A model generated the notes under the pieces. It saw only the letters and a list, made by a program, of their open reading frames with translations, made no database searches and was not told the origin of the DNA. Positions 1 to 2,143 of a DNA stretch of 17,732 nt are shown here, one piece after another. Every line of letters starts with the position of its first letter. The first letter of the stretch is position 1. Origin of the DNA: Synergistota bacterium (lineage in GTDB: Bacteria > Synergistota > JAGHAJ01); contig JAGHAJ010000099.1 of NCBI GenBank assembly GCA_021161545.1, positions 1-17,732 of the forward strand. The letters are read 5' to 3'. Position numbers and translations under genes: made by a program.

Positions 1-1914
1 ATATCACCCGAGCCGTTGGTGAACTATGTGCCACTTCAGAGGAGTCCTGAAGGGGAAGTGATAACCCAGTACTCCATGGGGCCATTGGAAGAAATAGGTA
101 TGCTTAAGATAGATTTTTTGGGACTTAGGACGCTGAGTGTGATAGATAATACGCTCAACAATATAAAGGAGTATCGCAAGGAAGAAATTAACATATACGA
201 TGTCCCTATAGATGATGAGGCAACTTACAGAACCATACAGAAGGGTGATACTACTGGTGTGTTTCAGCTTGAGAGTTCTGGTATGAGGCAGATGCTGATA
301 AAGCTAAAACCAGAAAGATTTGATGACCTTGTTGCAGCTCTTGCGCTTTATAGGCCTGGTCCCCTTGGCAGTGGTATGGTAGATGAATATGTCAATAGAA
401 AGCATGGTAGGCAGAAGGTGGTTTATCCACATCCTTCGCTTGAACCTATACTTAAAAGTACTTATGGTGTAATCCTTTATCAAGAGCAAGTTATGCAGAT
501 AGCAAATGTGCTTGCCGGGTTTTCTTTAGGACAGGCAGACATACTCAGAAGGGCAATGGGTAAGAAGAAAGTGGAGATGATGAATGAACAGGAGGAGGCC
601 TTTGTTAAGGGAGCAGTTGAGCATAGTGGTGTTTCTGAGAAGAAGGCGAAAGAGATATTTCAGCTTATACATTACTTTTCTGGTTATGGTTTTAACAAAT
701 CTCATAGTGCTGCGTATGCTATGCTTTCGTATTGGACGGCTTACTTGAGAGCGCATTACCCAGCGGAGTTTATGGCAGCACTTATGTCGAGTAAGATAGG
801 TGGAAAGGTTGAGGACATAGCCTACTACATAAATGAGGCCCGGGAGATGGGAATAAGAGTGCTTCCACCCGATATAAATGAGAGTGGCGTGTATTTCAAG
901 GTAACAGGGGAAAGGGAGATAAGGTTTAGCCTTGCAGCTTTGAAGAATGTTGGCATATCGGCGATAGATGCTATTATAAAAGCGAGAGGAAAAGGTGGAA
1001 AGTTTTCTTCGCTTTCCGACTTTTGTATGAGGGTTAGCTTGAGGAAGGTCAATCAGAGAGTTCTGGAAAGTCTTATAAAAGCAGGGGCCTTTGATAGTGT
1101 TATTCCATCTCGTGGGTATGCGCTTGCTGCGCTTCCAAAACTTATGAAGATGGGACAGAGAAGTAGAAGTAAGAGGGTGATCTACAAGGGTATCTTTAGT
1201 GAAGGGGAAGATTCGGGATATGATGTGGATGTAGGCGAATATAAAGAACTTACCAATGAGGAAATGCTCGCTATGGAGAAGGAAATTGTGGGTATTTATG
1301 TTTCTGGACATCCTCTTGAGGGCAAGGCCTCAGAGATTTCGACTTTTACTTACATGGATATAGATTATCTACCTTATTGTGTCAAAGATAAGGTGGTAGT
1401 AATAGGGGGAATAGTGCAGGCAGTTGAGGAGAGAAGTACAAAGAGGATGGAGAAGATGGCCATAGTAAAGTTAGAGGATATGAAGGGTTCGGTTGAAGTG
1501 GTTGTTTTTCCCTCCGCGTACAAGAAATATAGAGACCTATTGAGTGTTGGTAAGATTGTTGTTGTTGAGGGGAGATTTGACAAGAGCAACGGAAGTGGTA
1601 GAATATTGGCAAGGAATGTATATGGGTTTGAGGAGGTGAGAGAGGGGCTTCCAAAGGTGCTTAGAGTTGTAGTCAATGGTGATGTTGTTGATAGGGACAG
1701 GTTGGATGAGCTATACCACATTGTTCACTCTCGTGTGGGGAAAGACAGGGTTTTGTTGAAGGTTGTGAGTGTAAGGGGAGAAGCGCTAATCAATGTGGGG
1801 AGCGAGTTTAGGGTGGATGAAGAGCTTGTTAGGGCTATAGAAGAAATTGGAGCGGATGGCTCCATTTACTTGGAAAATATGAGGTTTAGGAGGGGAAAGG
1901 ATGGAGAGAGATAA
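1..1914 (+). CDS. dnaE: DNA polymerase III alpha subunit, DnaE type (C-terminal part)
   Basis: This is the replicative polymerase subunit that extends DNA in the Pol III holoenzyme. The gene is open at the left edge: the frame begins ISPEPLVNYVPL at base 1, so the PHP domain and the first two catalytic aspartates lie outside, and 637 residues are visible. DFLGLRTL (fragment residues 38-45) carries the Asp equivalent to E. coli D555. Fingers-type motifs follow (GVFQLES, YRPGPLGSG, GVILYQEQVM, NKSHSAAYA). A helix-hairpin-helix region follows (RFSLAALKNVG to LIKAGAFDS), then an OB-fold at about residues 455-545 (VVVIGGIVQAVEE to GRILARNVYGF). Having the OB-fold after the HhH region is normal for DnaE and differs from PolC. 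The TAA stop lies inside the next gene (14-base overlap), suggesting coupled translation. The TTG at base 16 is internal and not a start. Confidence 0.97.
   Translation: MSPEPLVNYVPLQRSPEGEVITQYSMGPLEEIGMLKIDFLGLRTLSVIDNTLNNIKEYRKEEINIYDVPIDDEATYRTIQKGDTTGVFQLESSGMRQMLIKLKPERFDDLVAALALYRPGPLGSGMVDEYVNRKHGRQKVVYPHPSLEPILKSTYGVILYQEQVMQIANVLAGFSLGQADILRRAMGKKKVEMMNEQEEAFVKGAVEHSGVSEKKAKEIFQLIHYFSGYGFNKSHSAAYAMLSYWTAYLRAHYPAEFMAALMSSKIGGKVEDIAYYINEAREMGIRVLPPDINESGVYFKVTGEREIRFSLAALKNVGISAIDAIIKARGKGGKFSSLSDFCMRVSLRKVNQRVLESLIKAGAFDSVIPSRGYALAALPKLMKMGQRSRSKRVIYKGIFSEGEDSGYDVDVGEYKELTNEEMLAMEKEIVGIYVSGHPLEGKASEISTFTYMDIDYLPYCVKDKVVVIGGIVQAVEERSTKRMEKMAIVKLEDMKGSVEVVVFPSAYKKYRDLLSVGKIVVVEGRFDKSNGSGRILARNVYGFEEVREGLPKVLRVVVNGDVVDRDRLDELYHIVHSRVGKDRVLLKVVSVRGEALINVGSEFRVDEELVRAIEEIGADGSIYLENMRFRRGKDGER
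1888..1893 (+). promoter_or_regulatory. Strong ribosome binding site of mtrB
   Basis: AGGAGG lies 7 bases before the ATG at 1901 and fixes the mtrB start inside the last codons of dnaE. The next two bases are also GG, extending the match. It is the best Shine-Dalgarno sequence in this part of the window and fits a protein needed as an 11-subunit ring. Confidence 0.7.
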
Positions 1915-2143
1915 GACAGAGGTTTTAGCAGATTATGTGGTTGTTAAAGCGTTGGAGAATGGCGTTTCGGTTATAGGATTGACGAGAGGCGAAGAAACGA
2001 AGTTTCATCATACCGAGAAGCTTGATAAGGGGGAGGTAATGTTAGTCCAATTTACGCAGAATACATCTGCAATGAAGATAAGGGGTAAGGCACAAATACT
2101 TACGAAGCTGGGAGAAATTATGTCCGAAAGCGAAAAGGAGTAG
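1901..2143 (+). CDS. mtrB: trp RNA-binding attenuation protein (TRAP)
   Basis: An 80-residue homologue of Bacillus TRAP. In Bacillus, TRAP forms an 11-mer ring that binds tryptophan between subunits and wraps RNA carrying GAG/UAG triplets spaced by 2-3 bases, attenuating trp transcription or blocking ribosome binding sites. The whole family core is present from [18 protein letters not shown] to MKIRGKAQ. Tryptophan-pocket residues T28, T33, H37, Q50, T52, T55 and S56 are kept (B. subtilis 25, 30, 34, 47, 49, 52, 53). So are RNA-contact residues F35, K40, K59 and R61 (B. subtilis F32, K37, K56, R58). Length is normal, with about three extra N-terminal residues. The gene overlaps dnaE by 14 bases and ends 7 bases before pfkA. 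No trp gene and no anti-TRAP gene lies in the window, so its targets here are unknown. Identity is secure from the residues; a working tryptophan sensor is inferred. Confidence 0.95.

Follow-up and report, generated by a model that had tools for sequence, protein, structure and literature searches.

A stretch of 17,732 nucleotides from a member of the Synergistota (here called the window) was analyzed around its gene for the tryptophan-responsive RNA-binding protein TRAP (MtrB). Judged by its sequence, this gene encodes a genuine, intact and ordinary TRAP, and its placement reflects an old inherited gene order, dnaE-(pfkA)-pyk, that is common to the Synergistota and many Bacillota. As a complete explanation, we consider it likely that an intact TRAP sits at this old location without any link to glycolysis and that it acts in trans, in relatives on the starts of trp genes.

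The open reading frame at positions 1901 to 2143 of the plus strand, taken with its translation from the list of open reading frames, encodes a protein of 80 amino acids that matches the TrpBP domain (PF02081) at residues 10 to 76 with an E value of 6.7e-39 and 132.1 bits, compared to a curated cut-off of 21.3 bits. All PDB matches of the protein are TRAP/MtrB chains without exception, confirming the assignment made in the first-pass annotation. It is the only TRAP gene detected in the organism's own assembly (1.575 Mb in 288 contigs, 82% complete).

The gene is tightly embedded between its neighbors, as had been described. The 3' part of dnaE, encoding the DNA polymerase III alpha subunit (positions 1 to 1914, plus strand; PF17657 and PF14579), is cut by the contig start, overlaps mtrB by 14 nt and contains near its end the Shine-Dalgarno sequence of mtrB, AGGAGG, at 1888 to 1893 (plus strand). 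Downstream follows pfkA, encoding 6-phosphofructokinase (2151 to 3113, plus strand; PF00365, 386 bits). The list of open reading frames places its start at a TTG at 2145; the ATG at 2151, preceded by AGGAG at 2136 to 2140, is the likelier start and leaves a gap of 7 nt to the end of mtrB. The next gene, pyk, encodes a pyruvate kinase with a C-terminal PEP-utilizer domain (3110 to 4864, plus strand; PF00224, PF02887 and PF00391), and its ATG at 3110 overlaps the stop codon of pfkA. Since the genes overlap and terminator-like sites around them occur at chance level only, dnaE, mtrB, pfkA and pyk are likely carried on a single transcript. Further downstream, at 4861 to 6380 of the minus strand, the list of open reading frames gives two genes that share 130 nt, one of O6-methylguanine-DNA methyltransferase type and one for an LPG-synthase TM-type membrane protein, so one of the two starts is probably wrong.

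In Bacillus subtilis TRAP, the residues K37, K56 and R58 form the RNA-contact triad (PMC7430163). The alignment places K40, K59 and R61 of the window protein at these positions, with F35, E39 and D42 as neighbors. The polar residues of the B. subtilis tryptophan pocket, which we take to be T25, T30, H34, Q47, T49 and S53, are likewise all kept in the window protein, as T28, T33, H37, Q50, T52 and S56. The earlier statement that all tryptophan-pocket and RNA-contact residues of Bacillus TRAP are kept thus holds for the triad and the polar pocket, but "all" is slightly overstated, as three nearby positions deviate from Bacillus stearothermophilus TRAP (A44V, H49N and I53M). Two columns kept in the window protein vary in other Synergistota TRAPs: in B. 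stearothermophilus numbering, Asn replaces T28 in 7 of 29 and Ile replaces T50 in 8 of 29. Overall, the window protein resembles the TRAPs of B. subtilis and Geobacillus stearothermophilus in family, length, triad and polar pocket. Positions 15 and 72 of Bacillus TRAP separate rings of 11 subunits from rings of 12, the latter having Lys and Thr (PMC3184956). Since the window protein has Leu at 15 and Ser at 72, as found in 11-mers, its ring probably consists of 11 subunits; such a ring would bind tryptophan and then wrap RNA with spaced GAG/UAG triplets.

Furthermore, we compared the gene order around mtrB across genomes. TRAP is present in 39 of 100 relatives from the phylum, and no sampled member of families f4, f5, f6 and f12 has it. 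The 30 Synergistota TRAP loci that were read all have dnaE upstream of the TRAP gene, and 28 of the 30 have pfkA or pyk directly downstream; the window and family f3 are the only ones in which pfkA separates TRAP from pyk. Among 78 Bacillota loci, the count after removal of two Synergistota records (L032 and L033), 48 (about 60%) have dnaE at most 3 kb upstream of TRAP, and 46 of these 48 also have pfkA or pyk within 4 kb, with accDA sometimes intervening. The remaining Bacillota loci belong mostly to Bacillaceae and Paenibacillaceae; those whose neighbors were checked have FolE and heptaprenyl diphosphate synthase beside TRAP, in contrast to the dnaE-pfkA-pyk setting of the window gene. The location that the first-pass annotation had suggested to be conserved in this lineage is therefore not a one-genome arrangement and is conserved more widely than proposed, spanning the Synergistota and many Bacillota. 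The cluster itself is independent of TRAP, since dnaE and pyk are also adjacent in 25 of 29 TRAP-less Synergistota. The presence of TRAP throughout much of a second phylum, in the gene order of many Bacillota, points to an old origin, and the shared order makes the folE location of mtrB in Bacillus look derived. Synergistota TRAPs group together on a tree (2 changes versus a shuffled mean of 23) whose 75 columns are too few for the deep order or the exact placement of the window protein. On this weak tree, the TRAPs of two Bacillota loci, L037 and L050, adjoin that of the window; in L037, the gene lies between those for a TrkA-C domain protein and a BioY-type transporter. No relevant description of TRAP in Synergistota, or of TRAP beside dnaE, was found in the open-access literature, so an earlier report may still exist.

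Putative TRAP targets were found at the trp genes of relatives with an array scanner that, as a positive control, recovered the expected long arrays near Bacillus and Paenibacillus TRAP genes. In TRAP-positive Synergistota, GAG/UAG arrays cover the start regions of trpE (L121, L122, L125, L129 and L138; e.g., GAGccGAGttGAGttGAGacGAGccGAG in L122), trpD (L250 and L252; e.g., GAGccGAGccGAGagGAGttGAG in L250) and trpB (L207, L221 and L222; e.g., AAGatGAGtcGAGatGAGatGAGacGAG in L221), as well as the start of a leader peptide (L159, L218, L219 and L221; e.g., TAGatGAGaaGAGtcGAGgtTAGcaGAG in L159). At a threshold picked after the scores were seen, a best array score of at least 3.5 at trpE/trpB or leader-peptide starts was reached in 13 of 26 TRAP-positive versus 0 of 36 TRAP-negative genomes and, at genus level, in 9 of 17 versus 0 of 13 (P = 0.0017); accordingly, half of the TRAP-positive genomes with trp genes score below this threshold. 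Genus-level Mann-Whitney tests on the scores gave P = 2.8e-5 for trpB and 0.03 for trpE, in a comparison whose composition was controlled by shuffles and from which relatedness is not fully removable. Phylogenetically independent pairs are too few for a proper test, and among them the direction of the association is consistent and not significant. Arrays of Bacillus TRAP targets have 9 to 11 triplets, whereas those of the relatives have 4 to 9, some of them just AAG. Phylum-wide matches of six and five triplets were rejected as targets, being mostly simple repeats that also matched the reversed pattern. In one TRAP-positive genome without trpE and trpB, an array of five GAG triplets precedes a DUF2193 gene by about 60 nt (L249/L330, G006:C65) and may be a target or due to chance.

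In most trpE/trpB leaders of Synergistota, a short Trp-Trp-Trp frame additionally precedes strong hairpins and U-runs (e.g., L121, L125, L221 and L159). With WWW peptides and, ahead of the T-runs, hairpins of -23 to -35 kcal/mol, these leaders qualify as trpL-type attenuators and resemble the Escherichia coli trpL system (Rfam Trp_leader) in short frame, hairpins and terminator. They differ from it in that none of seven Trp-leader loci tested gave an Rfam match at the gathering score and that they coexist with TRAP arrays in TRAP-positive genomes, the arrays being located, unlike those of Bacillus, on start regions downstream of the attenuator or on the attenuator itself. Some other trpE leaders (L111, L112 and L113, from one TRAP-positive and two TRAP-negative genomes) resemble T-boxes (AAGGTGGCACCGCG). 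For TRAP together with a leader-peptide attenuator on one operon, no description was found in the open-access literature, which leaves room for a prior report.

The occurrence of above-threshold arrays over trp starts in TRAP-positive genomes and their absence from TRAP-negative ones suggests a translation block by TRAP. The arrangement is similar to the translational control of B. subtilis trpG and trpP, where a triplet array likewise covers the ribosome-binding site and start, and differs in the genes concerned (trpE, trpD, trpB and the leader peptide) and in the smaller number of triplets. Blocking of the ribosome-binding site is an established mode of TRAP action in Bacillus, for which one repeat over the site is enough (PMC4347634). 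The most likely picture for relatives with trp genes is that TRAP, once loaded with tryptophan, binds the short arrays at which trpE, trpD and trpB have their ribosome-binding sites and starts, and sometimes also the start of the Trp-rich leader peptide, and would thereby block translation on operons that also bear a trpL-like attenuator. If TRAP halted translation of the leader peptide, the default terminator should form, and both systems would push in the same way. In its most specific form, this proposal holds that Synergistota subject one transcript to both TRAP and a ribosome-dependent Trp attenuator, that TRAP there blocks the trpE, trpD and trpB starts and, in some genera, leader-peptide starts, and that lineages without trp genes, including that of the window, keep TRAP for a different target; we offer this version tentatively, as somewhat less than an even bet.

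In the organism's own assembly, 82% complete, neither trpE nor trpB nor trpA was found. The search for GAG/TAG arrays in this genome that had been proposed was negative by three patterns, each run with a reversed-pattern control, in the same incomplete assembly without a visible trp operon. Matches with one mismatch in five triplets (8 versus 7 in the control) and exact four-triplet matches (3 versus 8) lay mostly inside coding frames, as did the sole flexible five-triplet match (control also 1), located in a frame rich in Glu and Lys; all were rejected. One match, GAGGGGAGTTTAGTTGAG (G000:C248:6230-6252, L144), lies over a TTG that may be the start codon of a gene for a small membrane protein, located after an acetyltransferase-like gene, the match count being at the control or chance level. 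Among 51 TGGTGGTGG sites of this genome, none showed a Trp-Trp-Trp leader peptide with an attenuator. These pattern searches thus identified no TRAP target in the 82%-complete genome. The same lack of trpE and trpB was seen in eleven TRAP-positive relatives of at least 90% completeness from several genera.

An organism that makes no tryptophan might use TRAP to regulate tryptophan uptake or another nonbiosynthetic gene, a reading that we regard as credible, if slightly less probable than its opposite. It fits the missing trp genes of the window's organism and of the eleven near-complete relatives, and a precedent exists in the Bacillus transporter gene trpP, which TRAP controls by keeping ribosomes from binding (Yakhnin et al. 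2004, as cited in PMC4347634). However, no array was found in the organism's genome by the three patterns, and clustered trp genes could all lie in the roughly 18% of the genome that is missing. For the lineages without trpE and trpB, tryptophan transport is the obvious guess. TRAP could also be a relic whose targets disappeared when the trp operon was recently lost, as the lack of both arrays and trp genes in the organism's genome would allow; this is unlikely, as the key residues are intact and the persistence of TRAP in the eleven relatives argues for a retained function.

As the alternative to a conserved location, the first-pass annotation had offered a link by which the level of tryptophan would be tied to the flow of carbon through PEP, a precursor of aromatic amino acids. 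TRAP lies beside pfkA or pyk in two phyla, and the pfkA/pyk starts of TRAP-positive genomes (mean array score 2.25, maximum 4.6) score slightly above the pyk starts of TRAP-negative ones (mean 1.61), with arrays at P < 0.05 in 4 of 28 versus 1 of 29. In contrast, scores at trp genes reach 8.0, far above this maximum, the start of TRAP itself scores alike (mean 2.48), and the best array in the window equals the shuffled maxima, with none above them. Since no outstanding array was detected by the scan at pfkA, pyk or TRAP starts, and the dnaE-pyk adjacency survives the absence of TRAP, the link is unsupported, and control of its own pfkA-pyk operon by TRAP to couple tryptophan to PEP supply is highly improbable.

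The inherited placement and action in trans, not on the neighboring glycolytic genes, thus remain our preferred explanation. The window TRAP is ordinary as regards its location and unsupported as a link to glycolysis, and the chief interest of the finding lies in what the relatives show. TRAP is textbook Bacillus biology, and TRAP and leader-peptide attenuation are usually taught as alternatives; the relatives suggest that a single operon carries both attenuation systems and that several lineages have kept TRAP after giving up tryptophan synthesis.
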